DNA of 64,000 nt from contig JAHLLR010000004.1 of assembly GCA_020444075.1 (NCBI GenBank), forward strand, positions 1 through 64,000, written 5' to 3'. The notes below the pieces were generated by a model. The model worked only from the letters and a program-made list of their open reading frames with translations, searched no databases and had not been told where the DNA came from. Positions 10,135 through 57,662 of the stretch are shown here, in pieces; position 1 is the first letter of the stretch; the number at the start of each line of letters is the position of its first letter. The DNA is from Deltaproteobacteria bacterium. Its GTDB lineage: Bacteria > Desulfobacterota > Desulfobacteria > Desulfobacterales > Desulfosarcinaceae. The position numbers and the translations under genes are program-made.

Positions 10135-10509
10135 ATGCAAATTAACGGTCAGATTGAATTTACGATTACAGAAAAAACGTCCGACCACGTTACCGCTGAG
10201 ATGCCGATACAAGCTGGCATATTAAACCCATTCGGCACGGTTCATGCCGGCGCCACCCTTTGGTTTGCCGATGTAACGGCAACGGTTCTCGTGCTTGAAA
10301 GCTTTGATGCCACCGAGGGAATGAAAGGATTTCCGCTGGCAATCAACCTGAATGCCCATTTGACGGGCAATAGCAAAAAAGGAATTTTTCATGCTCAAGC
10401 AAAATATGTAAAGCGGGGGAAGTCGGTAAGCATTGTCAGAACAACGGTTACAGATAATAATGGCCGCCTTGTTGCTGAAGTCACGACCAGTCATGTGCCA
10501 TCCGCATAA
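10135..10509 (+). CDS. PaaI-family hotdog thioesterase
   Basis: This is a single hotdog-fold protein of 124 residues. The segment NPFGTVHAGATLWFADVTAT contains the HAG motif and the following acidic residue expected for the PaaI/thioesterase active site, and the C-terminal strands (KYVKRGKSVSIVRTTV) complete the fold. It probably hydrolyses an acyl-CoA; the acyl chain is unknown. AGAGA lies upstream of the ATG. Its A+T-rich codon use (AAA, AAT, ATA) is lower in GC than that of its neighbours, as is the next gene, which may indicate acquisition from outside. Confidence 0.85.
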   Translation: MQINGQIEFTITEKTSDHVTAEMPIQAGILNPFGTVHAGATLWFADVTATVLVLESFDATEGMKGFPLAINLNAHLTGNSKKGIFHAQAKYVKRGKSVSIVRTTVTDNNGRLVAEVTTSHVPSA

Positions 10510-10601
10510 CAGGGAGTTACGGGATGGTGTGGGGCGGCGGGTGACCGCTATTTCCTCCACGACTGCGGAAAATGAACCTTATAAACGATTAGGGTGAAAA
10601 G

Positions 10602-10889
10602 ATGGACAAAATATTCGATGGTAAAAAAACAGCTAAATTGGGCACTCCGACGAATCCTGCCATTATCAATGTTCAAACAGCGGAAAGAGAGAAGGAATTA
10701 GAATCCGTGTTTGAAGAAAACGGGTGGACGTATACCATTGCGTTGGAACCCGATAAACCGGAAAATATTAAAGACCTGGAGATATTGTTGCATCCCCTGA
10801 AAACAAGGATTGCCGGGAAGAGTGTGGGGCGCAACGAATCCTGCCCCTGTGGAAGCGGCAGAAAATATAAAAAATGCTGTGGTAAGTAA
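10602..10889 (+). CDS. SEC-C metal-binding motif protein (PBPRA1643 family)
   Basis: This is a small protein of 95 residues. The C terminus [18 protein letters not shown] is a complete SEC-C zinc-binding motif (CxCxnCC), as at the end of SecA. The N-terminal part matches the small PBPRA1643-type SWIM/SEC-C proteins. The function of this family is not established; the SEC-C domain suggests ribosome or protein contact. Codon use is A+T-rich like the thioesterase just before it. Confidence 0.8.
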
Positions 10890-10957
10890 GGCTTTTTTTA
10901 TATTGAAAAGAAACGTTTAATATCAGGGTCAGGCGGACCGACCTGGCCGGCCTGCTG

Positions 10958-12298
10958 TCACCGCCCGCTGACCGGGACTCCCGCTTTTTTGTTGAGGGCC
11001 TGCCAGTACCTGCGGTACGCCCAGCCGGGCGGACTTTCAACCGGCATCGCGTCGACGCGTTCGACCCAGGTTCGGGTCAGTTCTTCGGCTTGCTTGAAGG
11101 CCTTTCGGCAGAGAGTTGTATTTTCCTCACCGGCAGTTTTCGTTGATTCCTCGACAAAAGATCGCTCCAACCCGTCCCGTGCGTCGGCAAAGGCGGAAAG
11201 TCGGTTCCCGTAATCCATGAGGATGAGGCGATGAAGGCGCTCGTGCCGCCACCACAGGCTGCGTTCGTCGTAAGCCGCGCCGGGGGCCGTGCCCGTGTCG
11301 GGCATCCCATGCATTTCGAATCTCATCGGCTTGAAGATACCCGTGCAAGGCGCCGATGTGCCTGTGGCCCAGTATGTGGGTGCATGCGGTGTCAGGTGAG
11401 CCACCAGCGATCCGGTGGTCTGAAAACCTCTGGATACCGGGTTGGCGGCGTGCATGCAGATCCGGTCCATGAACAGATGGGCGGCGGGACGGTATCCGGT
11501 CGTGGCATGGTCCCGCAGGCTGCGCAGGGCGCCGGCAAAGTCCAATTTTCCGGATACTGCCGGCGGCAGGGCGGCGAGTTGCTGCCGGCATCGGTTCTGG
11601 CGGGCTGCCGAGAAGGAGAAGGTGGTGTTGAACCAGTCCGAATAGCACCTCTTGAAGCTGAAGGTGCGGCCCGGCTTCAGCCAGCCCTTGTGCCTTGCCG
11701 TGTCGATCAGCTGGGGATGGCTGCGGTCGAAGTCGTCGTCCAGGGTGAGGCGATTGGAGATGGCCCAGGAATCGGTGATCCGTTTGGCCGCCCACAGTTC
11801 TCCGGAGGTTTCCAGTATCCAGGCGTCGTAAGGGTCCGCACAGAGAAAACTGTTGTGGTAGGCCATACGCCGGTCCGTGTACCCGCAAATGCCGCCCTGG
11901 CCGTGGTCGGCCAGAAGTCCCACAATAACTTCCACCGCCTGCTCGGCGCTTCCGGCGCGTTCCAGGGCCAGGCGCAGGAGATCCATGCCGGTGAGGGCTT
12001 TGCCCCGGTTGACCGGCATGCGGGTGAAAACCGCTTCGTTGCCGATGACAAGGCCATTCTCATTGGCGCCCATCTCGGCGCCCCACATCCAGAAGGGGCG
12101 GCAGATCAGAATATCAAAGGTTAGTGGAGCCTGGGGAATGGCAACGGAGGTGCAATGCACCAGCTCATCGGGGCCGTGGGTTCCACCGGCAACAAATTCC
12201 AGGGCCATGGCCTCGTTGGGTTCCCGGTCGCTGTTCTTGCCGAAGATCACCGATCCGTCAGCAGTTGCGGATTTCAGGGCCACAAAGGTGTCACACAT
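10958..12298 (-). CDS. C69-family peptidase (secernin-like, Ntn hydrolase)
   Basis: The protein has 446 residues and begins MCDTFVALKSAT. Removal of Met would expose Cys2 as the N-terminal nucleophile, the hallmark of the C69/secernin and related Ntn hydrolases. FGKNSDREPNEA and GANENGLVIGNEAVFTR are conserved family stretches. Relatives are dipeptidases or amide hydrolases. It lies 64 bp downstream of the PPi-phosphofructokinase gene on the same strand, but I see no functional link. Confidence 0.85.
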   Translation of the reverse strand: MCDTFVALKSATADGSVIFGKNSDREPNEAMALEFVAGGTHGPDELVHCTSVAIPQAPLTFDILICRPFWMWGAEMGANENGLVIGNEAVFTRMPVNRGKALTGMDLLRLALERAGSAEQAVEVIVGLLADHGQGGICGYTDRRMAYHNSFLCADPYDAWILETSGELWAAKRITDSWAISNRLTLDDDFDRSHPQLIDTARHKGWLKPGRTFSFKRCYSDWFNTTFSFSAARQNRCRQQLAALPPAVSGKLDFAGALRSLRDHATTGYRPAAHLFMDRICMHAANPVSRGFQTTGSLVAHLTPHAPTYWATGTSAPCTGIFKPMRFEMHGMPDTGTAPGAAYDERSLWWRHERLHRLILMDYGNRLSAFADARDGLERSFVEESTKTAGEENTTLCRKAFKQAEELTRTWVERVDAMPVESPPGWAYRRYWQALNKKAGVPVSGR

Positions 12299-25098: not shown

Positions 25099-26520
25099 TT
25101 ACCTAATCGTATCGATAAAACGGCGGCCCCGATCCATCAGTTCATCGTGGTCCCCCGGCGGTTCAAGGCCGTCGATCACCTGCAGGACGTGTTTTCTCAA
25201 TGTCTCATCCGCGCAGGTCGAGCCCTTCGCCAGCCATTGGTCCAGGGTCATGGACGGCCAGATGGGGCTTTCGTAGGGCATCTGCCGGAATAGCCGGCAG
25301 GTGAGCCCGGACATGAGGAAATTGCCGCCGGGGCCGATGGAACGGATTTCATCGTGGGCCACGGCGGCGTCATCCAGTTCAAAACCGTCGGCAAACATCC
25401 GGGACAGCCGGATCACCTCGTCGGCATAGACCACGGCCGCCGGTGAAAAGACCATGGAATCGAAATTGCCGCCGACGAAAGGGGCCAGACCCACTTTGCC
25501 CAGAAGGCTTGAGAAATGATTCATCCAGAACCCGCCCGCTGCCAGCAGATCCGGGCCCCAACCGGGCCCGCTGCCCGAGGTCCCCGAATGGGGCAGGCTG
25601 TAATAAGCCATCATTTCCGCACATGCCAGGTTCAAGAGCATGGTGTGCGGGGTATACAGGCTCATCATGCTTTTCATGTCAAATCCCGCCGGCAGGCTTC
25701 CGAGGATGACGGGGGACCCCGGTTTGACCAGTTGGGCGAAGACCAGACCCGCCAGCAGCTCCGCATTGAGCAGGGCCAGCGTGCCCCCGGGGGTGATAGG
25801 TGTCGTGGCCCCGGACATGCCGTAATTGTTGAAGATAAATGGCAGCCCCCGGTCGATGGCCATCATCATTTTTTCAGTCGTTTCATTGTTGAGGACCAGC
25901 GGTGAAATGGGATTGACGTAAGGGATGGCAAAGGGCTGTTCAGTCAGGCGGCCGCTGATGTGTTCAAGCAGATCCAGCACAGGGCCGAAGCGGCTGTGTT
26001 CCGATACGAGGACCACCAGCGGTTTAGTGGTGTTGGCCGCCATCGCCAAGGTGGTATGCAGGTCGGCAGTCTGCTGGGAGATGTCCTGGGCAATGCCCGG
26101 GGTGGACAGCATATCGAACTGGTTTAACCGTTGCGCCAGCTGTGCGGCAGTAGCCGCATGGGCAATTGAAAAGGGCGCGATGCCATCGGTTGCCGGATCC
26201 TGGTAGTGAAGGTTGGTGACGCCGATGCCGAATCGGGTCTGGTTTTGGGGGTGCCGGCCGACGGTGAAGGCCGGATTGCCGTTGCGATCATAGATATCGA
26301 CGCTGTCGGGGGCGCTTTGGATGGCCCATTGCACCCGTTCGGGGGGAATGAAGACCCGATTGTCCGGCAGCACCCGGCAGTCTCCTTGGGCAAACCGGGT
26401 TCTGGCCGCATTCGAATCCACGCGGACGCCGACGTCTGACAGGATTTTCAGCGAATAGCCGTGTACGCGGGCACACTGGTCCCGGGTCAGGCAGTTGATC
26501 AAGGGGCTGACGGTCCCCAT
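25099..26520 (-). CDS. MttB-family methyltransferase without pyrrolysine (COG5598)
   Basis: The protein has 473 residues and is homologous to MttB over its length, but it has no internal TAG. At the place of Pyl, the segment YYSLPHSGTSGSG aligns serine (codon AGC) with Pyl. Relatives lacking Pyl include MtgB (glycine betaine), MtpB (proline betaine), MtcB (carnitine) and MtyB (gamma-butyrobetaine), so a quaternary amine substrate is expected. It is the first gene of the minus-strand operon and is followed by saccharopine dehydrogenase and reductase genes. That context suggests a lysine-related methylated substrate (inference). A promoter and an operator lie 80-120 bp upstream. Confidence 0.87.
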   Translation of the reverse strand: MGTVSPLINCLTRDQCARVHGYSLKILSDVGVRVDSNAARTRFAQGDCRVLPDNRVFIPPERVQWAIQSAPDSVDIYDRNGNPAFTVGRHPQNQTRFGIGVTNLHYQDPATDGIAPFSIAHAATAAQLAQRLNQFDMLSTPGIAQDISQQTADLHTTLAMAANTTKPLVVLVSEHSRFGPVLDLLEHISGRLTEQPFAIPYVNPISPLVLNNETTEKMMMAIDRGLPFIFNNYGMSGATTPITPGGTLALLNAELLAGLVFAQLVKPGSPVILGSLPAGFDMKSMMSLYTPHTMLLNLACAEMMAYYSLPHSGTSGSGPGWGPDLLAAGGFWMNHFSSLLGKVGLAPFVGGNFDSMVFSPAAVVYADEVIRLSRMFADGFELDDAAVAHDEIRSIGPGGNFLMSGLTCRLFRQMPYESPIWPSMTLDQWLAKGSTCADETLRKHVLQVIDGLEPPGDHDELMDRGRRFIDTIR

Positions 26521-26578
26521 TTCGGATCTCCCTTTTGGTCCTGTTTATTTCGATTCGGCAGACAGGAATAAAAAAGAT

Positions 26579-26606
26579 TTGATTTTTCAATAGACAGATT
26601 TATAAT
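26579..26606 (+). promoter_or_regulatory. Candidate sigma-70 promoter of the pyl operon
   Basis: TTGATT (26579-26584), a 16-base spacer and a perfect TATAAT (26601-26606) point toward tRNA-Pyl. The predicted start lies near 26613, just before the palindromic operator. Confidence 0.6.
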
Positions 26607-26626
26607 GGTCGAAAATTTGTTGTCAC
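26599..26626 (-). promoter_or_regulatory. Candidate promoter of the MttB-family operon
   Basis: On the minus strand, GTGACA (26626-26621), 16 bases and TATAAA (26604-26599) form a sigma-70-like promoter about 80 bases before the ATG at 26520. Its -35 box lies inside the operator at 26619-26638. Confidence 0.55.
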
Positions 26627-26638
26627 GAATAGGACAAC
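26619..26638. promoter_or_regulatory. Palindromic operator between the divergent methyltransferase and pyl operons
   Basis: GTTGTC-N8-GACAAC is a perfect inverted repeat. It covers the -35 box of the leftward promoter and lies just downstream of the start of the rightward promoter, a place where a bound repressor blocks both. The same arrangement occurs at 35976-35995 on the promoter of the TrmB-family regulator gene, including the matching spacer bases AC-AAT-G. Confidence 0.7.
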
Positions 26639-26675
26639 ATTTATCAAGCGGTTGAAATGGTGTCAAGGGCATTTT

Positions 26676-26690
26676 AGCGATGAGATCGCT
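26676..26690. promoter_or_regulatory. Short inverted repeat upstream of tRNA-Pyl
   Basis: AGCGAT-GAG-ATCGCT is a perfect 6-bp inverted repeat with a 3-base centre in the leader before tRNA-Pyl. It could be a small RNA hairpin or a second protein site. It differs from the operator at 26619. Confidence 0.35.
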
Positions 26691-26740
26691 ACATCCGGGT
26701 TGAAAAATGCATAGAGGTGTGAAACGGTAACCGTGTTTGC

Positions 26741-26814
26741 GGGGGGTGGATCGACAGCTGATCGCGTGGACTCTAAATCCACGTAGCTCGGTGCAACACC
26801 GGGACTCCCCGCCA
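26741..26814 (+). tRNA. pylT: tRNA-Pyl (anticodon CUA)
   Basis: The 74-base gene folds into a cloverleaf typical of tRNA-Pyl. The acceptor stem GGGGGGT/ACTCCCC has 7 bp with one G-U pair, and discriminator G and CCA are encoded. One base joins acceptor and D stems; the D stem is GATC/GATC with a 7-base loop lacking GG. The anticodon stem has 6 bp (CGTGGA/TCCACG), and the loop CTCTAAA carries the anticodon CTA at 26773-26775. The variable loop is only 3 bases. The T stem CTCGG/CCGGG has loop TGCAACA. It is the first gene of the pyl operon and decodes UAG. Confidence 0.95.
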
Positions 26815-26877
26815 TTTCAATACTGTTAAACGACCGGTGCAACAGGGTGCATCGACCCGAAAAAGCAGTGACGAACC

Positions 26878-27717
26878 ATGAGCCTTTACTGGACGGATAT
26901 CCAACGCAAACGGTTGGTGGAACTGGATGCCGACGCCAATACCCTGGAGCGGGCATTCGACGATAAGGACCAGCGCAACCGGGAATTCCAGACCCTGGAA
27001 AAAGGGCTTGTCGCATCCCACCGCCGCCAGCTTGACGCCCTGCGCAGCGGCCCTCGACGTCCCCGGTTGTGCCGGCTGGAGGACGTATTGGTGGAATCGC
27101 TGGTGTCTCACGGCTTTGTTCAGGTCTCCACGCCGATGCTGATGTCCCGGGGGTTGCTGGCCAGGATGGCCATTACGGCCGATCACCCCCTGTTCCAGCA
27201 GGTCTACTGGGTGGACAGGGATAAATGCCTGCGTCCCATGCTGGCGCCCCACCTTTACTATGTGATCAAGGACCTGCTGCGGTTATGGGAAAAGCCGGTC
27301 CGGATATTTGAAGTGGGCACCTGCTTTCGCAAAGAGACGGAGGGTGCCAGACACGCCGCCGAGTTTACCATGCTGAATCTGTGCGAGTTCGGGTTGCCTG
27401 AAACCGATCGCCAGCAGCGGCTGGAATCGTTTGCCGCCCTGGTCATGGAGAGCGCCGGGATCGACGGCTATCGATTGGAAACGGAAACATCGGCGGTGTA
27501 CGGTTCCACCCTGGACGTGGTTTCCGACGACGGGCTGGAGCTCGGCTCCGGCGCCATGGGTCCCCACCCCCTTGACCGGGCCTGGCGCATTACCGATACG
27601 TGGGTGGGCATTGGTTTCGGACTGGAGCGTCTGCTCATGGATGCCGAGGGAGGTTCCAACCTGTCGCGTTTTGGCCGGAGCATCTCCTACCTGGACGGCA
27701 TCCGCCTGAACATCTGA
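26878..27717 (+). CDS. pylSc: Pyrrolysyl-tRNA synthetase, catalytic domain protein
   Basis: This class II synthetase has 279 residues and corresponds to the C-terminal catalytic half of archaeal PylS. Motif 2 is FEVGTCFRKETEGARHAAEF (residues 144-163), and motif 3 is GIGFGLERLLM (244-254). The ending NLSRFGRSISYLDGIRLNI matches the PylS C terminus. It attaches pyrrolysine to tRNA-Pyl. It begins 63 bases after the tRNA with a poor ribosome site, which may keep its level low. The N-terminal tRNA-binding half is encoded separately by pylSn at the other end of the operon, as in bacterial pyl clusters. Confidence 0.95.
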   Translation: MSLYWTDIQRKRLVELDADANTLERAFDDKDQRNREFQTLEKGLVASHRRQLDALRSGPRRPRLCRLEDVLVESLVSHGFVQVSTPMLMSRGLLARMAITADHPLFQQVYWVDRDKCLRPMLAPHLYYVIKDLLRLWEKPVRIFEVGTCFRKETEGARHAAEFTMLNLCEFGLPETDRQQRLESFAALVMESAGIDGYRLETETSAVYGSTLDVVSDDGLELGSGAMGPHPLDRAWRITDTWVGIGFGLERLLMDAEGGSNLSRFGRSISYLDGIRLNI

Positions 27718-27737
27718 AAAGAGAAGGTCAGACCATC

Positions 27738-28883
27738 GTGAACAAGGACTATTCGGCCATCGTCATTCCCGCGCACGGGCGGGGGAGAGACGATCTGGAG
27801 GCTATCGTTGAACAAGCGGCGGACAACACCGGAATTTCCCCGGCGGCGATGATCCGCCTGCTGGATTCTCCGGCGCCGGGCCTGCTGGACAAGCTGTTTG
27901 CCGCTGCCAGACGGCAGCGCGACCGCAATTTCGGCAATTTCGTGTTTCTTTATGGGTTTTTATACATCAGCACCCATTGCCGCAATCGATGCGGTTTCTG
28001 TTTTTACCGCAGGACCAACACCCGGGCGATCCGATACCGCAAGACCCGGGCCGAGATTTTAGAATCGTCCCGACTGCTGGCTCGGTCGGGTGTCCATCTC
28101 ATCGACCTGACCGCCGGTGAAGATCCCCGTTTTTTCACGGATGACGAAAACGGCTTTGACCCGGTGATCGGCATCGTACAATCCATCAGGGCGGAAACCG
28201 GCCTGCCGGTGATGGCCTCCGTCGGCGTGGTTCCGGATATGATTCTCGACAGACTGGCCGCAGCCGGCGCCGATTGGTATGCCTGCTACCAGGAGACTCA
28301 CAACCGGCAGCTGTTCGATCAGCTTCGGGTGGGCCAAAGCTTCGAGGCCCGCTGCCGGAGCAAGGTGGCAGCCAAAGCCAGAGGCATGCTCGTGGAAGAG
28401 GGTCTGCTTTGCGGCGTGGGTGAAACATCGCGTGACCTGGTCAACTCCTTCGATGCCATGTTCCGCCTGGGAGCCGATCAGGTTCGGGCGATGACTTTCG
28501 TTCCCCAGGCCGGAACCCCCATGCATGACCAGCCGCCTTCTTCCTCCCTGCGGGAAATGATCACGATTGCCCTGATGCGCATCGCCTTTCCCGATCGGCT
28601 CATTCCGGCCTCACTGGATGTGGACGGCCTGGCCGGCCTGAAACAGCGGCTGGATGCCGGTGCCAATGTGGTGACGTCGCTGGTTCCACCGGGCCGGGGG
28701 TTGGCCGGTGTGGCCCGGAGCGCCCTGGACATCGAAGACGGCCGGCGCACCGTGGAAGGCATTGCACCGGTCCTTCGTACCTGCGGGCTCCAACCGGCAA
28801 CCGCCGATCAGTACCGGAACTGGATCGCTGACCGAAAACGAACCACCTGCCTTCCTGATCGCAGGATGGCAACCGCATGTTAG
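27738..28883 (+). CDS. pylB: 3-methylornithine synthase (radical SAM)
   Basis: The enzyme has 381 residues from the GTG at 27738, which has GAGAAGG upstream. CRNRCGFC (Cys81, Cys85, Cys88) is the radical SAM [4Fe-4S] motif in the CxxxCxxC form, within a biotin synthase-like barrel. PylB rearranges lysine to (3R)-3-methyl-D-ornithine, the first step of Pyl synthesis. Its stop is TAG, embedded in the pylC start (ATGTTAG). Once Pyl-tRNA accumulates, read-through could lengthen PylB by about 57 residues in a frame that does not encode PylC. Confidence 0.95.
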   Translation: MNKDYSAIVIPAHGRGRDDLEAIVEQAADNTGISPAAMIRLLDSPAPGLLDKLFAAARRQRDRNFGNFVFLYGFLYISTHCRNRCGFCFYRRTNTRAIRYRKTRAEILESSRLLARSGVHLIDLTAGEDPRFFTDDENGFDPVIGIVQSIRAETGLPVMASVGVVPDMILDRLAAAGADWYACYQETHNRQLFDQLRVGQSFEARCRSKVAAKARGMLVEEGLLCGVGETSRDLVNSFDAMFRLGADQVRAMTFVPQAGTPMHDQPPSSSLREMITIALMRIAFPDRLIPASLDVDGLAGLKQRLDAGANVVTSLVPPGRGLAGVARSALDIEDGRRTVEGIAPVLRTCGLQPATADQYRNWIADRKRTTCLPDRRMATAC

Positions 28884-49340: not shown

Positions 49341-49715
49341 TCAGGACGAGCGCTGCAGCGCGTCTTCTATTTTCTTGATTTCCTTTTCCAGGGCCTCGGT
49401 ATCCAGCGGTTTGTTGAAAAAGGCGCAGGCGTCCAAATCAAAGGCCTGGCGGGCCAGGTCACGATCGCCGTGGCCGGTGATGACGATGACTCGTGTTTCC
49501 GGCGCCAGCGATTTGATCTGGCGCAGCACGGCAAAGCCGTCTTTCCCGGGCATTTTGATGTCGGTGAGCACAATTGGCGGACGATGGGTGGTAAAAACCG
49601 CTATCCCTTTGGATTCATTTTCCGCCGTCAGGACCTCGTGACCGCAAACTTCAAGATAGAGTTTGAGCATCTGCAAGGTCGGTTTTTCGTCATCGATGAT
49701 GAGGATTTGCGTCAT
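49341..49715 (-). CDS. Stand-alone response regulator receiver protein
   Basis: The protein has 124 residues and is a single REC domain. IDDEKPT holds the acidic pair, LTDIKMPGKDG the phospho-accepting Asp, VITGHGD the conserved Thr, and FFNKPLD the Lys. With no output domain it probably acts by protein contact or as a phosphate shuttle. I place the start at 49715 because GGAGAG precedes it; an upstream ATG at 49730 is possible. It follows the PAS kinase by about 50 bases and is its likely partner. Confidence 0.87.
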   Translation of the reverse strand: MTQILIIDDEKPTLQMLKLYLEVCGHEVLTAENESKGIAVFTTHRPPIVLTDIKMPGKDGFAVLRQIKSLAPETRVIVITGHGDRDLARQAFDLDACAFFNKPLDTEALEKEIKKIEDALQRSS

Positions 49716-49764
49716 GGTCGCGCTCTCCATGAATTTTTAATTATCCGGTGTTCCCATTCTCAGT

Positions 49765-51900
49765 TCATGCGTGTTTGAACCGCATTTCAAAGCGAGTCCC
49801 TTTGCCCACCTTGCTTTTTACGGTGATGTTGCCGCCATAGTCCCGGACGATGCCGTAGGTGATGGCCAGCCCCAGCCCCATGCCTTTGCCCACTTCCTTG
49901 GTGGTGAAAAAAGGCTCGAAAATTTTATCGCGGTTCTCGTCGGGAATGCCGCTGCCCGTATCCGCCACCGCGCACACCACGTCATCATGCTCCCCATAGG
50001 TTTCGATGACGATGCTGCGCGCATCGATGCCGCCGGCATCGTCCGGCAGCTGTCCGATGGCATCCCGGGCATTGGTCACCAGATTGAACAGGACCTGCTC
50101 CAGCCGGTTTGGGTTCGCCAGGATCGTCGGCAGATTGTCCGCCAGGTGGTAGGATACATTGATGTTGTTCAGCGACAACTGCTGACCGATGATTTTCAGC
50201 ACGTCCGTGATGATGGTGTTGATGTTAACCGGCTCTTTCCTGAAATCGGGTTTGCGTCCGAATTCACGGAGCCTGTTGATGATTTCCGAAGCCCGCTGTA
50301 CCTGATCGGTGACCGCCGTGGCCACCCGGTTCAGTTCCTGGCGGGTAACCGGATGTCCTTTTTCGATTTTCCGCTTCAGATAATCGTTGCCGATCTTGAT
50401 GGCGTTGAGGGGCTGGGTCAATTCGTGGGCGATACCGGCGGACATCTCCCCCAACGTCGTCATCTTGCTGGATTGGAACAGCTGGGCGTCCTTTTCGATG
50501 GCTTCGGTGATGTCGGTAGCCGCCAGGATCAGCGCCTCCCGGTCCTGGTACTTGATGGGGCAGGCCTTGACGCGGAGGTAAATGGGGGTGCCGTCTTTTT
50601 TCAGGTGGCGGGCCTTCTGGTTGATGATACACGAGTCCAACCCGTTCGACGCGGAATCGAGGCCCAGTCCCGTTTCGGTGATCTCGAAATCTCCCAGTTC
50701 ACCGAAGGAGCGTCCCAGCAACTCCTCCTTGGTGTAGCCGTAGGCATCCAGAACCGCCGGATTGACATCCAGGATGCGAAGGTCGGCGGGCTCGAGGACG
50801 AAAATAGGGTTGGGACCGCTGTCGAACAGGGAGCGGTATTTCTCCTCGGAGTCGTGCAGGGCCGCTTCGGCCATTTTCCGCTCGGTGATGTCCAGAAAGG
50901 CGCCGCTGATGAAATCGATCTGCCCGTTTTCATCGCACACGATCTGGCTGCTGGCCTGCAGCCAGACGATTTCGCCGCTTTTCTTGCGGATACGGTATTC
51001 GCGGATGTACTGGCGATTCGTCCTGAGCGCATCGATGAATATCTTCCTAGCCAGCGTCTGATCGTCCGGAATAATCAGATCGGTCCATTTCAATGCTTTG
51101 GTCAGGAACATCTCTTTCGGGTATCCGGTAAAGGCCTCGACCTTGTCGTCGAAAAAGTCGATGGATCCGTCCGGATATCCCTTGAAAACGATATTGGGGA
51201 TGTTGTTGATCAGCAGCCGGTAATTGCGTTCGCTTTCCCGCAGGGCGATTTCGGAGCGCTTCTTTTCGGTGATGTCCGTGGCAATGCACAGAAAGCCGTT
51301 GAACATGCCGTCCGTGTCACGCAGGGGGTTGATGGAAAGGGTGACCGGAAACGCGCTGCCGTTCTTGTTCAGGTAGGTCCATTCCCGCTGCTCCTGGTCC
51401 GCGTGCATGGCGAAGTGATAAAACAGGTTGATGCCCTCAATTGGCTGCATGGCTTCGGCACGGGCCAGGATCGACTTTTCCTGGAGGTCCAGGGGGTCGT
51501 GGAAAACCAGGGGGGTCAGACGTCCGATAACCTCGTCGGCACGGTAACCGAGCAGGTTTTCAGCGCCCTTGTTGAAGACGGTGATGATGCCCCGCTTGTC
51601 GGTGGCCACAATGGCCATGTGGGAGGCCGAGTCCAGCACGGCCTTGCGCTGGGCGTTGGCCACCTGGAACCGCTGGAGAATCCGTTCGGTCTCCTCGAAC
51701 TGCTTGACCACCAAACTGGCGGTGATCTCCGCCGATTCACGGGAGACCCGGATTTCCTCCTTCAGGATTTCGTTTTCCACCACGAGATCCTGAACCGGGC
51801 AGTTTTCCCGGTCCTGGCAGTGTTCGCATCGTTTGGGCCACCGGTAGGAGGTGTGAAACGGGATCCGGGATTGAATGGATGCTTGCGCCGCGGGTGTCAT
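49765..51900 (-). CDS. Cytosolic PAS histidine kinase next to the hydrogenase sensor
   Basis: The protein has 711 residues with no TM segment. The N terminus has a Cys25-x2-Cys28-x5-Cys34 group, a possible metal site, then a short helix and three PAS domains (about 90-210, 225-345 and 350-470). His492 is in [12 protein letters not shown], and the ATPase domain has [22 protein letters not shown] and GLGLAI. Its position after a group-2 type hydrogenase pair recalls HoxJ, the PAS kinase of the H2-sensing HoxBC system. The receiver protein follows. Its kinase core is close to that of the RND fusion gene upstream. Confidence 0.88.
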
Positions 51901-51943: not shown

Positions 51944-53437
51944 TCATCGGGAAAGATTGATCGCGTGAACCGTGCAGACCAGGCAGGGATCAAAGGACCG
52001 GACGACCTGTTCCACTTCAACCGGGTCGTCCGGATTGCGCACCGCTGTCCCCGTGATGGCCTGCTCCCAGGGTCCCGGGATTTCGTTTTTATCCCTGGGG
52101 GAGCCGTTCCAGGCAGTCGGCGTAATGACTTGATAATTGGCGATTCTTCCGTCTTTGATCACCACCCAGTGTCCTAAAATACCCCTGGGCGCAGTAACGG
52201 TGCCGAAGCTTCTGGCCGACAGCGGTTTCAACGTGTCCGTGTAATATTGGGCGTTGGCATGGGCCATTCCGGCTATACACTGTTCCACCGCCGGCAGGAG
52301 CATGGCCGGTCGGACCAGGCGGGCCAATTCCCTGATGAACACGCTGGCGCCATTTGAACGGACCCAGGCGACGAACAATGGTGTGCCGGCCATCAGCTGG
52401 TCGGCCAACGGTCCGGTTTCCGCCGGTTGGCCGTCGTATCGGGGCGCTTTGGCCCATGAGTATTTCCGTTCATCCTCGGTATAGGGGTCGGCAATGGTTC
52501 GGCTGTCAAAGGGGTGGCCAGGGGTTTCCTTGAAAAAGGAGTGGGTCACGTCCTCGGATATTTTTTCAGGATCCAGGGGAGCCGTTCCTTCCGGGGAGAA
52601 GATTCCGGCCGGAAAAAGAGGGCGGCTCCCACCGTCTGGCCGGGGTAGATCCGGCCCGCCGGCGCTGATGAAGCGGTCGTGCCCCCGCCCCAGGCTGTCG
52701 AGGCCGCTGGAAAGCGCCATGCGGATGAAAAAACCCAACTCGCTGTCCCGATGGGACGGCTTTTCCGCCAGCCAATGCTGCAGGTCGTCCCAGGTGCTCA
52801 CCATCTGCCACCGGTGGAGCGTGCAGCCTAACACCCGGGATTCATACCACTTGCGGAAGCTGGACAGAATATGGCTGCATTGGGCGATATCGCTCCCGCC
52901 CGGTACGGACACCACCCCGCCGGGAACCATGAAGGAAGAGTGGGGCCACTGGCCTCCCAGGATGGCAATGATTTCGATGAGTTTTTTAGTCTCCTGAAGG
53001 GTCTGGACGGTGGATTGACCCTTGAGGGGCCGGTAGCGGGTGACCGCCTCTTCGTAAAGGGGATGGTCGGCATAGCGGGGCCGGGTGAAATCGGGCATGA
53101 ACAGCAGGAAGAGGTGACGAAGGTCGTTTTGCAGCTGTTCCACCATCAGGGTCGTGCTCCTCAGCCGATGGGCATCGGCGGGGATGGAGACGTTATAGGC
53201 CATGTCCAGTGCCTTGGCAGCGGCGTTCAGGTGGGCCGTGGTGCAGATGCCGCAGATTCGAGGCGTGATGACCAGGCTGTCCAGCGGGCCCCGGCCGGTC
53301 ATCAGGTTCTCGATGCCCCGGTACATGGTGCCCACGCTTTTAGCTGCGGTCACCACGTTGTCCCGGTCCAGTTCCAGGTGGATCTCCAGGTCCCCCTCCA
53401 CGCGATTCAAAGGGATGATTTTCCTGATTGTTGTCAT
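51944..53437 (-). CDS. [NiFe] hydrogenase large subunit, regulatory (H2-sensing) type likely
   Basis: The protein has 497 residues. RICGICTTAH (Cys62, Cys65) and DPCLVCTVH (Cys485, Cys488) give the four Ni-Fe cysteines. After the last His only six residues follow, so there is no C-terminal peptide for the maturation protease. This is a feature of regulatory HoxC/HupV subunits. It binds the Ni-Fe site and reacts with H2. It has no Tat-linked partner and no electron-transfer gene. A PAS kinase gene follows 43 bases later. Group 2 uptake enzymes are the alternative. Confidence 0.83.
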   Translation of the reverse strand: MTTIRKIIPLNRVEGDLEIHLELDRDNVVTAAKSVGTMYRGIENLMTGRGPLDSLVITPRICGICTTAHLNAAAKALDMAYNVSIPADAHRLRSTTLMVEQLQNDLRHLFLLFMPDFTRPRYADHPLYEEAVTRYRPLKGQSTVQTLQETKKLIEIIAILGGQWPHSSFMVPGGVVSVPGGSDIAQCSHILSSFRKWYESRVLGCTLHRWQMVSTWDDLQHWLAEKPSHRDSELGFFIRMALSSGLDSLGRGHDRFISAGGPDLPRPDGGSRPLFPAGIFSPEGTAPLDPEKISEDVTHSFFKETPGHPFDSRTIADPYTEDERKYSWAKAPRYDGQPAETGPLADQLMAGTPLFVAWVRSNGASVFIRELARLVRPAMLLPAVEQCIAGMAHANAQYYTDTLKPLSARSFGTVTAPRGILGHWVVIKDGRIANYQVITPTAWNGSPRDKNEIPGPWEQAITGTAVRNPDDPVEVEQVVRSFDPCLVCTVHAINLSR

Positions 53438-53514: not shown

Positions 53515-54453
53515 TTAAATGCTGGTTTTGCGTTCCATCAGACGCTTCGGGGCCGCCGCCGCGGCCATGCCTTTGTAGGCCATGTAATGGGCACGGCTCA
53601 CGCCGTCGGGAAGTTCGATGGGGATGCCCTCGATGTTGCGTGTCTCGAAAAAAGGGTACTGCTGGGGGAAATCGGGCCGGGTACAGCCGAAACAGGGCAC
53701 TCCTACGCGGGTCTTGGACGATCGCCGGTTCCACAGCGCCTTGTTGCAGGGGCCGGTGACCAGCGGCCCGTGGCAGCCCATGTAGAAGAAGAGACATCCC
53801 CGTTCACCGAAGCGCTTTTCTTCCACCCGGTACTCGTGGTACTCGTTGCGGGTGCATCCCTGGTGGACCATCACCCCGTACCAGTCATTGGGGGTGTTGT
53901 AATGTCCCAGGTTGACGACGACATCCGCGGCCAGCGCCGACAGGGTCCCCACCACCACATCGCAGTGGCAGGGGCATCCGGGCAGGTTGATCACGGGGTA
54001 TCCTCCGCCGGACAGGAAGGTCTGCCCCAGGAGCCCCCCCATCTCCCACTTGTTGAATTGAAGCCCCCCGGCCATGGTTTCACTGTCTGCACCGATGCCT
54101 CCGAAGCTGGCGCAGGTGCCCACCGCCAGAACGACCTGAGCCCGCTGGGCCAGGTCATACAGGAAGTCTTTGCGGGGACGATCGGGCAGCATGTCGAAGC
54201 GGCCGGTGCCGTCCGGTCCGTTGATTACCGAGCCTTCCACACAGAGAATGTCCAGGGGCTGATCGCCAGAAAGGATACGCCGATTGAGCGCCACCAGATC
54301 CTTCGCGGAAGTGGTGCTGAGCGCATGGTGCCAGAGTACTTCAATGTCGAATGCCTCGAAGAGCTCCACGGGATCCGGCGTATCGGCATTCATCAGGGAC
54401 CAGGTGTCGCCGCCGCAACTGCCGCCCTGGATCCAGTATAAGGTCTTCGGCAT
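53515..54453 (-). CDS. [NiFe] hydrogenase small subunit, cytosolic type
   Basis: The protein has 312 residues. It starts at the mature end (MPKTLYWIQGGSCGG), with no Tat signal peptide, so it is cytosolic. Cysteines in GGSCGG, GTCASFGG, LPGCPCHCD, HQGC and VPCFGC bind the Fe-S clusters that carry electrons from the Ni-Fe site. Absence of a signal and of a C-terminal anchor fits group 2 hydrogenases, including the H2-sensing HoxB/HupU. The large subunit gene is 77 bases downstream. Confidence 0.87.
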   Translation of the reverse strand: MPKTLYWIQGGSCGGDTWSLMNADTPDPVELFEAFDIEVLWHHALSTTSAKDLVALNRRILSGDQPLDILCVEGSVINGPDGTGRFDMLPDRPRKDFLYDLAQRAQVVLAVGTCASFGGIGADSETMAGGLQFNKWEMGGLLGQTFLSGGGYPVINLPGCPCHCDVVVGTLSALAADVVVNLGHYNTPNDWYGVMVHQGCTRNEYHEYRVEEKRFGERGCLFFYMGCHGPLVTGPCNKALWNRRSSKTRVGVPCFGCTRPDFPQQYPFFETRNIEGIPIELPDGVSRAHYMAYKGMAAAAAPKRLMERKTSI

Positions 54454-54583: not shown

Positions 54584-57547
54584 TCAGACTGCCTGTTTCA
54601 GGGCCGGAAAGGTCAGGGTCACCGTCGTTCCTTTTCCCGGCCGGCTGGCCACGCTGATGCGCCCGCTGCTGTCGCGGACGATCTCCTGGCTGATGGACAG
54701 CCCCAGCCCCTTGCCCTTGCCAGCGCTCTTGGTGGTAAAGAAGGGTTCGAAAATCCGGTCAAGGATGTGATCGGGGATGCCCACACCGGTATCCGTGATG
54801 CTGACCATGACCGAGCCGCTGATTTCAGCTGCGTCAACGGTAATCGTGTGGTCCCGTTCCTCCTCCTCCGCTTCCCTCCGGCGCGCGATGGCTTCGCGGG
54901 CGTTGTCAATTATATTGTAGATTACCTGAACCAGCCGGCCGTGATGGCCCATGATCAACGGCAGGTTCGGTTCGATGTGCACGGACAGCGAAATCGACTC
55001 GAGCGTGAGCTGGTTTTCCATAAAAGCCAGGGTGTCTGCGAGGGGCTGTTGAATCTGAAGGGGCGCCTTTTCGAACGCCGGTGCCTGACTCATTTCGCTG
55101 AGGCGCTGAATCATCTGTGACGCCCGCGCCACCTGGCTGCCGATCTCTCCGGCGACGGCAGCCAGATGGGAGGCCTTCAGCGGGCCCTTCTGCCGCGCCA
55201 TCATTTTGAGAAAATCGCTGCCCACCTTGATGGCGTTGAGCGGCTGGTTCAACTCGTGGACCGTGGCCGGAGAGATGCCGCCCACGGTGGGCATCATCTT
55301 GAGCAGGTCCCAGGCCGTCACCAGTTCCACGTGCATCATCATGGCCGGCAGCAGGATGATGTCGCCGATCAAGGCTGAAATCATGGTCACGACCATCAGG
55401 AAACCGAAGATGGCGGTGGGTTGAAAATGAGAGAAAATCAACACGGAAAATCCCAGACTGATGGTCAGGGAGGTGAAGATGATGGGCCTTCCCACGTTCA
55501 TCAAGGTGTCGCGCATGGCCCGATCCTTGTCCAGGTCCCGTTTGAACTCCGTGTTGTAGCGCACCAGATAGTGGATGGTGTCGTCCACGGCCAATCCGAT
55601 GGCCACGCTGGCGATCAGGCTGGTGGCCACCGAGAGCGGGATTCCCAGCAGCCCCATGAATCCGAAATTCACCACGATGGGAAACAGGTTCGGCACTACC
55701 GCGATGAGGCCGACCTTGCTGGAAACGAACAGCACCACCATGACGGCGAAGATCAGCACCAGGGAAATGATCAGGCTCTTGACCTGTCCCAGGGTGAGCA
55801 GATGGCTGGAGGCGGCGATGACCAAGCCCAGTCCGGTCACCTCGAGGGTGGCCTCATTGTCGAAGGCGATTCCGGCGTGGTTCAAGATCCGTTCACGCGT
55901 ATGGAGAAAGTCACGTGAGTTGGCAATATGGGTAAGCATGAGGATGTTGACCCGGCTGTAGTCGGCACTCAGGAAGCGCTGCAGCAGATCGTTGCCCAGG
56001 ATGATTTTGAAGTTGTTCATCAGCATCCTGAGTTCATAGCTGTCCTCGGGCAGCACATAAAACTTCGACTCGAACCGGTTGGTAACGTAGTTGATCAGCT
56101 TGAGGTAATCGGCCAGCGAGATGGTTTTGTCAACTCCGGGCAGCCGGTCCAGAAAGGACTGCAGCCGGGCGATGCTGGCCACATTGGCGGGGGTTTCGAA
56201 GTAGTCCGCTTCTTTGCCGGACATGATCACGTTGATGGGAAAGCTTCCCGACATGTCCCGGTAAATATCATGGAAATGCATGCTTACATCGGTGCTGCGC
56301 TTGAAAAAGGCAACCGGGTTGGTTTCTACGCGGACCCGCAACATGCCCACGATGCAGACGACCGACACGAGGCCGATGGCGATCAGGCAGGGTTTCCGGT
56401 GCTTCAGGTTCAAGGTGATAATGCCTGCCAGCATCTTGTCGAAAAATCGATCGATGGCCGATGCTCCGGCGTCGGTGACGCGGGGCAACGGCAGCCAGGC
56501 GAGCATGGCCGGGAAAAAGGTGAGCACAATGACCAGCAGACTGAGCATGCCGAAGCAGGCAAACAGGGCAAACTCCTGGATGGCCGCAATGCGGTTGGCC
56601 CCGAGCGATCCGAGGCCGATGAGCGTGGTGGCCACCGCCAGGGTGACGGGGAAGGCCAGACGGCTGAATGTGGACAGGCTGGCAGCGCTGTTCGACGGCG
56701 AGGTTTTGATCTGCTGAAGGTATTCGGTGCAGATGTGCAGACAGTAGGCCGTGCCGACGGCAATGAGAAATACCGGGATGATGATCGTGAGCATGGACAC
56801 GGAAATGCCGCTCAGGGCCATCAGCCCGAACGTCCAGCAAACGGCGAGGGTGACACACGAAAGGGGCAGGACCAGGCAGTGCAGATTGCGGAACAGGCCC
56901 GCCAGCAGCACGGCGATAACGATCAGGGTGACGGGCGTCAGGTGGAAAAAATCCTGCCGGGTATATTCCGCCAGCGCTTCGGAGACCAGGGGCATGCCGG
57001 TCTGGTAAAGGCGCAGGTCCTTGCCCGTCGTCTCGAAGAGCCGTCTCACCGCAACGATGGCCGCATCCTTGTCTGCCCGGGCGTCGAGAACCAGCGTGAT
57101 GATGGTGGTTTTCCGGTCGGTCGAGATCAGGTTGCGCTGAAACAGTTCCACCGGCGCCAGCATGGCGGCGAAGGTGGCCATGTCCCATTGATTGCCCCGA
57201 TCGACGCTCTTTCTGACTTCCGGCAGGCTGATGATTCTTACGACTCCCTCGATTTGCGCTGCCGCCTCGGACAACTGGGTGATTTTGGCAAAAGTGACCG
57301 GGTCGAGAATGTCGTCGGCCTTGACCACCAGCCGAATGATCTCATCGGAGCCGAATTGCGCCAGAAACTGATTGTAGCGGACGGATTCGTCCAGGTCTTC
57401 GATAACCAGGTCGTAAACCGTGGTCTTAAAGGAGAGTTTCGGAAGGTGCCAGGCAAAAAAAAGGGTGATGGCGGCGCAGCCCAGGATCACCCATCCAGGC
57501 ATTTTGACCACCATGTTGAGGTAGGCGTTGAAGGAGAACCGTTTCAT
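54584..57547 (-). CDS. RND/MMPL transporter fused to a histidine kinase
   Basis: The protein has 987 residues. Residues 1-740 are an RND/MMPL-type exporter (COG1033-like), with 12 predicted TM helices and two large periplasmic loops; IVIAVLLAGLFRNLHCLVL and VAIGLAVDDTIHYLVRY are typical TM4 and TM10 segments. About 24 residues after the last TM helix a complete kinase begins: His764 in [37 protein letters not shown] and GKGLGLSIS. The kinase resembles that of the nearby PAS kinase. I take ATG 57547; an upstream TTG at 57640 is less likely. I infer that transport, or the binding of a transported lipid-like substrate, is sensed directly. Confidence 0.88.
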   Translation of the reverse strand: MKRFSFNAYLNMVVKMPGWVILGCAAITLFFAWHLPKLSFKTTVYDLVIEDLDESVRYNQFLAQFGSDEIIRLVVKADDILDPVTFAKITQLSEAAAQIEGVVRIISLPEVRKSVDRGNQWDMATFAAMLAPVELFQRNLISTDRKTTIITLVLDARADKDAAIVAVRRLFETTGKDLRLYQTGMPLVSEALAEYTRQDFFHLTPVTLIVIAVLLAGLFRNLHCLVLPLSCVTLAVCWTFGLMALSGISVSMLTIIIPVFLIAVGTAYCLHICTEYLQQIKTSPSNSAASLSTFSRLAFPVTLAVATTLIGLGSLGANRIAAIQEFALFACFGMLSLLVIVLTFFPAMLAWLPLPRVTDAGASAIDRFFDKMLAGIITLNLKHRKPCLIAIGLVSVVCIVGMLRVRVETNPVAFFKRSTDVSMHFHDIYRDMSGSFPINVIMSGKEADYFETPANVASIARLQSFLDRLPGVDKTISLADYLKLINYVTNRFESKFYVLPEDSYELRMLMNNFKIILGNDLLQRFLSADYSRVNILMLTHIANSRDFLHTRERILNHAGIAFDNEATLEVTGLGLVIAASSHLLTLGQVKSLIISLVLIFAVMVVLFVSSKVGLIAVVPNLFPIVVNFGFMGLLGIPLSVATSLIASVAIGLAVDDTIHYLVRYNTEFKRDLDKDRAMRDTLMNVGRPIIFTSLTISLGFSVLIFSHFQPTAIFGFLMVVTMISALIGDIILLPAMMMHVELVTAWDLLKMMPTVGGISPATVHELNQPLNAIKVGSDFLKMMARQKGPLKASHLAAVAGEIGSQVARASQMIQRLSEMSQAPAFEKAPLQIQQPLADTLAFMENQLTLESISLSVHIEPNLPLIMGHHGRLVQVIYNIIDNAREAIARRREAEEEERDHTITVDAAEISGSVMVSITDTGVGIPDHILDRIFEPFFTTKSAGKGKGLGLSISQEIVRDSSGRISVASRPGKGTTVTLTFPALKQAV

Positions 57548-57662
57548 TCCATCATCAACTCTGCTTGTCTGAATAGCTGAGGTTCCGCTCAAGACGTCGG
57601 CGACGTTTTTACTGTTAACACCAAACCTGCGAGGGTGCAAGCCGCGCAGTGGTGGCCGGGTG

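Follow-up and report, generated by a model that had tools for sequence, protein, structure and literature searches.

A transporter-like RND protein joined to a kinase

Can a complete membrane transporter of the RND family act as the sensory half of a histidine kinase? The question is raised by a gene on the − strand of contig JAHLLR010000004.1 (assembly GCA_020444075.1) from a Deltaproteobacteria bacterium of the Desulfosarcinaceae, phylum Desulfobacterota, of which the first 64,000 nucleotides were analysed here and are called the window. The gene encodes an RND/MMPL-type protein followed by a histidine kinase core, and this RND-kinase fusion was confirmed as a genuine single protein, with the look of a pump-shaped sensor of a kind not described before. 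Its parts, with the evidence for each, are as follows.

54584..57547, − strand: RND-histidine kinase fusion of 987 amino acids; RND 1-739, linker 740-763, DHp with H764, ATP-binding domain to about 985 (open reading frame, Pfam, alignment, model)
55334..57547, − strand: MMPL/RND domain; two repeats, 12 predicted transmembrane (TM) helices, D655 and D656 in TM10 (Pfam, alignment, model, Foldseek)
55259..55330, − strand: cytoplasmic linker, residues 740-763, containing VELVTAWDLL (alignment, pattern search)
54584..55258, − strand: histidine kinase core; predicted phospho-acceptor H764 and N, G1, F and G2 boxes (Pfam, alignment, kinase trees)

The frame runs unbroken for 987 codons from an ATG at 57547; a TTG upstream, at 57640, is also in the open frame and would give an alternative protein of 1018 amino acids. 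Pfam matched MMPL in two stretches of the RND half (E = 9.4e-36), together with Sterol-sensing and Patched, and the last 230 residues matched HATPase_c strongly (E = 1e-25; 90.7 bits against a gathering score of 26.4). The closest named records to the RND part came from a Desulfosarcina sp. metagenome-assembled genome (88% identity) and from D. cetonica (71%). A first-pass annotation of the letters had described a complete 12-TM exporter joined to a kinase core, with about 24 residues between the last TM helix and the phospho-acceptor and with neither PAS nor HAMP between them. This description was borne out by the Pfam matches and by twelve helices in a weak AlphaFold model; exactly 24 residues lie between residue 739 and H764, and in the Pfam scan of the 987-residue protein no PAS or HAMP match was found between the RND and kinase parts.

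Recurrence of the fusion in the phylum

The genomes sampled belong to the phylum of the window, and the locus counts are minima since the search thresholds were strict. In total, 32 fusion loci were detected in 31 genomes, window included and with two loci in one genome (G143); 29 loci are whole, 1 is cut by a contig end and 2 are frame-broken, and an N-truncated copy in genome G148 was left out of the count. In the order of the window (Desulfobacterales), 20 loci carried the whole fusion in one open frame each, in 19 of 389 genomes (E ≤ 1e-120; the window's genome counted). D. cetonica (G006, locus L041) also has the fusion, in a reading frame that is interrupted within the RND domain. A second class of the phylum contributed 11 loci in 85 genomes, 9 of them whole, the exceptions being G831 (L160), where the frame is broken within the kinase, and G800, where a contig ends. 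A phylum-wide sample of 395 genomes yielded 6 whole fusions, all of which were already present in one of these two sets. A search over all phyla for contigs of close relatives returned four loci only, all Desulfosarcina or Desulfobacteraceae by title.

The same domain order, for which the first-pass annotation had proposed a search, is thus found well beyond the window, and a stop between the domains, which it had named as a sign of two genes joined in error, was seen in no relative. Between the window and an 85%-identical orthologue (L029) the ratio of nonsynonymous to synonymous divergence was 0.175 in the RND half and 0.156 in the kinase half, which indicates purifying selection in both. 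A sequencing or assembly error that fused two genes has next to no probability left and is ruled out by the 32 loci, of which the 29 whole ones span 14 families of two classes and include a single-contig assembly (G714), and by the purifying selection in either half, even if two draft relatives (L041 and L160) do have broken frames, away from the junction.

Conservation of the linker and of the two halves

The main alignment comprised 23 fusions, including that of the window, with RND halves mostly 47-59% identical to the window's. Between P734, at the end of TM12, and H764 there was not a single indel in any of the 23, and in all 7 additional second-class proteins whose sequence spans the junction the proline again precedes the histidine by 30 residues. 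The stretch VELVTAWDLL (740-749) was the best kept of those measured, with a mean modal share of 0.93 compared to 0.58-0.78 in other regions (TM8-12, 0.78; DHp, 0.63; CA, 0.58). A linker-like motif was also detected by pattern search in 25 of 30 members of a sister form that carries a cNMP-GGDEF tail and is described below. In the kinase core, H764, N878/N882, D919/G921/G923, F936 and G947/G949 were invariant in 23/23 fusions, and ZraS and FixL-type kinases are solved relatives of this half.

RND proton relays usually have an acid in TM4, and the charged residues concerned lie in TM4 and TM10. The TM10 acids were present as D655 in 23/23 and D656 in 22/23 fusions, and the pair was invariant in a mixed alignment of 14 rows. 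The RND half scored 216.3 bits with TIGR00921 (HAE3), under the cut-off of that model at 351.9, and its profile matches to solved structures were MmpL4 (5e-35), MmpL5, HpnN, NPC1 and Patched. The AlphaFold model was built from a nine-row alignment and used for helix boundaries and fold only. It places twelve long helices where RND TM helices are expected (by our own assignment 17-37, 187-218, 222-246, 253-282, 286-317, 321-351, 384-402, 573-606, 610-634, 640-671, 674-705 and 709-739) in a two-repeat RND architecture with two periplasmic domains; the best Foldseek matches were MmpL4, HpnN and MmpL3.

The hydrogenase cassette and its variants

Four further genes on the same strand complete the locus in the window.

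53515..54453, − strand: [NiFe] hydrogenase small subunit, putative sensory type; no signal peptide by eye (Pfam, inspection)
51944..53437, − strand: [NiFe] hydrogenase large subunit; L2 motif SFDPCLVCTVH, 6 residues after the motif, no long C-terminal extension (Pfam, inspection)
49765..51900, − strand: histidine kinase with three PAS domains, here the PAS-kinase (Pfam, best match, kinase tree)
49341..49730, − strand: stand-alone receiver domain, proposed common phosphoryl acceptor (Pfam, neighbour survey)

The RND-kinase gene comes first; the hydrogenase small subunit follows after 130 bases, the large subunit after a further 77, the PAS-kinase after 43 and the receiver after 34. The RND-kinase gene probably heads an operon; promoter and terminator scans at the locus gave results at chance level. 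The earlier description had made no connection between the fusion and the hydrogenase and PAS-kinase of this cassette. The kinase core of the fusion has, elsewhere in the genome, its best match in the core of the cassette PAS-kinase (43%).

Sensory hydrogenases have a small subunit that lacks a signal peptide and a large subunit that lacks the C-terminal extension. The consensus SFDxCLVCTVH is reported for the L2 motif of group 2c [NiFe] hydrogenases in PMC4853749, and the exact match in the window suggests, by motif, a group 2c sensory enzyme. Among 16 neighbour large subunits, window included, the motif was exact in 13 and one residue off in L030 and L073, and L079 was incomplete. The tail after the motif counts 6 residues in the window versus 15 in the uptake type; in L030 and L075 it counts 24.

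Neighbours of the fusions were surveyed by tblastn up to a distance of 9 kb, and frequently over a shorter one where a contig ended, and hydrogenases with at least 45% identity to that of the window were termed 2c-like. In the window's order a [NiFe] hydrogenase structural gene was located near 21/21 loci (2c-like, n = 17; uptake type, n = 12; some with both), a receiver near 18 and a second related kinase near 17. In the second class a hydrogenase was found near 4 of the 11 loci, a receiver near 8 and a second kinase near 7. A universal partnership with hydrogenase, complete in the window's order, is rejected by these 4 of 11. Over all 32 loci a receiver lay within 9 kb in 26, in agreement with the earlier choice of the receiver at 49341 as partner, and a second related kinase in 24. 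The genome of the window contains about 6 loci of the NiFeSe_Hases family in 5.6 Mb (our own count from split matches), so that adjacency within 9 kb would arise by chance at about 2% of loci, by our own estimate and for loci that are related and non-independent. Elsewhere in the same genome (G000:C161:22124-23611) a [NiFe]-type large subunit frame contains one in-frame TGA and may encode a selenocysteine (NiFeSe) enzyme.

At loci that lack the 2c hydrogenase, its input place seems to be taken by a binding protein and/or a Cache-HAMP-PAS kinase. A gene for a periplasmic binding protein of the branched-chain amino acid (Peripla_BP_6) type was found beside the second kinase in L078 (by Pfam) and in L077, L136, L137 and L155 (by similarity), and a Cache-HAMP-PAS kinase in L136 and L156 (by Pfam), all of them 2c-less loci; L073 has both a 2c-type hydrogenase and such a binding protein. 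Because the 2c-less loci carry other candidate inputs, the commonest unit is RND-kinase, second kinase and receiver, with the hydrogenase as the main and not the sole input.

A sister form and the evolution of the two halves

The window's genome also encodes an RND protein 54% identical to the RND half that ends in a cNMP_binding domain and a degenerate GGDEF domain and has no kinase. This tail was established by Pfam in two scanned examples. The motif GG[DE]EF was absent from the last 250 residues in 30/30 of the cNMP-GGDEF forms, which makes an active cyclase unlikely. The control consisted of thirty non-kinase RND loci; among them are several on short contigs and the distant L036 and L109, which have just a cNMP tail. 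Outside the control, hydrogenase genes were found at L139 and L140 and a protease gene at L142, L141 evidently duplicates the contig of L042, and no hydrogenase genes were found at the distant L144-L146.

Two arrangements were noticed besides. In G148 (L098/L143, 7298-9031, − strand) the N-truncated RND-kinase lies between an intact RND-cNMP-GGDEF gene and uptake hydrogenase genes; L098 is one of the control loci. In the hydrogenase-linked clusters of L033, L034, L035, L039, L077, L078 and L091 an ApbE-like (FMN transferase) gene, identified by Pfam in L078 and by eye in the others, is located between hypE and the RND gene, and some of these clusters have EtfBA-like genes on the opposite side. 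Since such a gene often stands ahead of the RND gene in hyp clusters, flavinylation of the RND protein by ApbE was considered as a conceivable reading.

In the kinase tree the cores of the fusions formed one clade (25/25 rows, support 99/97), which takes in the D. cetonica piece as well as the truncated copy of G148. When the second class was added the clade held 32 rows and the kinase piece of the broken G831 fusion (L160_HK), again at 99/97. The 25-row clade is nested in a 98/98 clade with 19 cassette kinases and L005, another kinase of the window's genome. A common origin of the kinase cores is supported by these trees. For the RND half a single origin of the RND-kinase backbone was rejected (approximately unbiased test, p = 0.0036; 24 rows versus 38), in a tree that has long branches and leaves out the eight second-class loci found later. 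Because the kinase halves make one clade and the RND halves do not, tails may have been exchanged, or repeatedly lost, on related RND backbones in the manner of plug-compatible modules; this reading is uncertain owing to the long branches.

Synonymous divergence between the window and L029 was 0.37 for the RND half and 1.08 for the kinase half, with a jump near codon 750. Since the other genes of the locus vary as well (0.38 to 0.99), the jump gives a mere hint of recombination near the RND/kinase junction. At L029 itself (G012, 10479-10970, − strand), a broken second RND fragment (50% over 70 amino acids) lies upstream of the RND-kinase, possibly a trace of recombination between RND genes.

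Elsewhere in the window, at 25099-28883, a tRNA-Pyl (26741-26814) stands beside genes for an MTTB methyltransferase, a class II tRNA synthetase-like protein and a radical SAM protein; the set resembles a pyrrolysine (pyl) cassette that includes a trimethylamine methyltransferase.

How the fusion may work

With moderate confidence we favour a one-piece transporter-receptor, or 'transceptor', in which the RND domain would be the sensory input of the histidine kinase and the signal would pass to a shared receiver. The TM helices of the RND domain would shift when a hydrophobic ligand binds or moves, or when the Asp pair in TM10 is protonated, and TM12, together with the VELVTAWDLL linker of fixed length, would relay this shift to the DHp helices. 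Autophosphorylation of H764 would follow, and the phosphoryl group would be transferred to the lone receiver, to which the PAS-kinase would also donate phosphate. For the cassette of the window, H2 would be signalled by the group 2c hydrogenase via the PAS-kinase, and the receiver might sum 'H2 present' and a signal of the membrane or energy state and adjust H2 metabolism. We infer kinase activity, the direction of signalling, the shared receiver, the ligand and the target genes from the sequences, and the circuit is best read as two kinases, largely H2-linked and fed by a putative transporter-shaped receptor. In its favour stand the 32 loci, the linker of constant length, the invariant kinase residues, the purifying selection in both halves, the receiver and second kinase near most loci, the shared clade of the kinase cores, the exchange or loss of tails suggested by the RND tree, the hydrogenase near every locus of the window's order, and a 2c-like hydrogenase that accompanies kinase-tailed loci and none of the 30 control loci.

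Several observations weigh against this reading. The place of the TM4 relay has no acid (G-T-A-Y-C-L-H, with A267 in 23/23 fusions), so that sensing of the proton-motive force is doubtful, and the sensing of proton flux, as put forward in the first-pass annotation, loses ground accordingly. HisKA was matched weakly, at 19.6 bits under a Pfam gathering score of 26.9, and the receiver at 49341-49730 lacks an output domain. The AlphaFold model is weak (mean predicted local distance difference test, pLDDT, of 57; predicted TM-score, pTM, of 0.45), with pLDDT below 50 at 740-774 and no continuous helix across the linker. No hydrogenase was found near 7 of the 11 second-class fusions (L161 and L162 at a contig end), and the H2 link is therefore not general. 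In the control, an uptake hydrogenase structural gene was found near 10/30 loci, and that or hyp/protease genes near 14/30; this share of the link is then unrelated to the kinase. Hydrogenase clusters thus go with the RND core as such. What travels with the kinase tail is the 2c-like hydrogenase, a point for the reading and not against it, as this type was absent near all 30 non-kinase RND loci (several on short contigs).

The counts from the control also suit the reverse direction, by which the RND half would be a working exporter of a hydrophobic substrate needed while hydrogenase is made, and the C-terminal tail would switch transport, through the phosphorylation state of the kinase or, in the sister form, through a cNMP or a nucleotide on the degenerate GGDEF. 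The conservation of the TM10 Asp pair, invariant in the mixed alignment, fits a working pump, and the cNMP_binding and degenerate GGDEF tail resembles cytosolic input domains, a further point against the transceptor; because of this tail the reverse direction is a serious rival. The full catalytic boxes and the receiver that co-travels in 26/32 loci point rather to a phosphotransfer output, and we consider this rival unlikely.

Less likely again is an RND half that is a mere membrane anchor or dimerisation platform, the kinase being controlled by the hydrogenase or by a hetero-dimer with the PAS-kinase. Mixed dimers are conceivable given the kinship of the core to the cassette PAS-kinases, and the hydrogenase is adjacent in the window's order. 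An anchor sits poorly with an RND half that is under purifying selection and better conserved in TM8-12 than either DHp or CA, and some loci lack a 2c hydrogenase.

The presence of a pair of related kinases next to a single receiver gene, and the weak HisKA match, might also suggest that the RND-kinase has lost kinase activity and tunes the PAS-kinase/receiver pair as a phosphatase or pseudokinase. With the His, N, G1, F and G2 residues invariant in 23/23 fusions, this appears quite improbable.

Relation to known systems and meaning

To our knowledge, transporter-kinase fusions are rare and the studied ones are SLC5-based. The existence of other such fusions, mentioned in the first-pass annotation, holds for kinases of the CbrA type: in PMC13022988 a complete secondary transporter and a histidine kinase in one chain are called a rare 'transceptor', and such a chain can hold both activities, as in CbrA (PMC13022988 and PMC7096432). 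The SLC5-STAC histidine kinases CbrA and CrbS are further treated in PMC7096432 and PMC9100948. They share with the RND-kinase a full transporter fused to a histidine kinase and differ in having an SLC5 symporter with STAC and PAS before the kinase, where the RND-kinase has an RND/MMPL domain and a direct linker of 24 residues. No symporter family (SLC5) was among the Pfam matches of the fusion, and the Pfam scan gave no STAC match between TM12 and H764, a span of only 24 residues; STAC is a small four-helix bundle, for which Pfam may hold no model. Since CbrA has both activities, the RND-kinase counts as a further transporter-kinase chain, outside the SLC5-STAC family. To HAE3/MMPL-type RND proteins (HpnN, MmpL3/4/5; Patched, NPC1, Dispatched) it is alike in its two MMPL repeats and, by the weak model, in overall fold; the C-terminal kinase, the TM4 without an acid and the TIGR00921 score below cut-off set it apart.

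HoxBC and HoxJ are names used in the hydrogen-sensing systems of group 2b. In these systems (HupUV/HoxBC with HupT/HoxJ), as in the window, a sensory [NiFe] hydrogenase adjoins a histidine kinase; the window differs in its group 2c L2 motif, its two kinases, one of them RND-fused, and its receiver without output domain. The sensory [NiFe] hydrogenase HupUV beside the histidine kinase HupT is described in PMC9789115, and a regulatory hydrogenase in complex with a kinase in PMC5665086. Group 2c hydrogenases are matched exactly in the L2 motif, the partners here being PAS-kinase, receiver and RND-kinase. No RND-kinase was named in the titles or abstract openings among the matches listed from the open PMC literature, nor is one mentioned in the available portions of PMC8277102 and PMC11109136.

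In a wider and tentative proposal, which we hold to be possible and rather doubtful, the RND core would be a family of 'energy-state' receptors in the membrane, used mainly for the hydrogen metabolism of the Desulfobacterota, with interchangeable tails in the cytoplasm (a kinase, or cNMP-binding and degenerate GGDEF domains) on one conserved linker. Through its Patched/NPC1-related pump fold, gene regulation would be informed of the state of quinones, lipids or protons, alongside the direct sensing of H2 by the 2c enzyme. As an RND-kinase with no intervening domain and an indel-free linker, the fusion would be a compact system for the coupling of a pump cycle to a kinase, and it bears on the possible role of RND proteins with the Patched/NPC1 fold as receptors. 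From their tie to the fusion the group 2c hydrogenases, for which signalling is a proposal only, would gain a partner and perhaps a second input, and sulfate reducers a testable circuit for H2 control.

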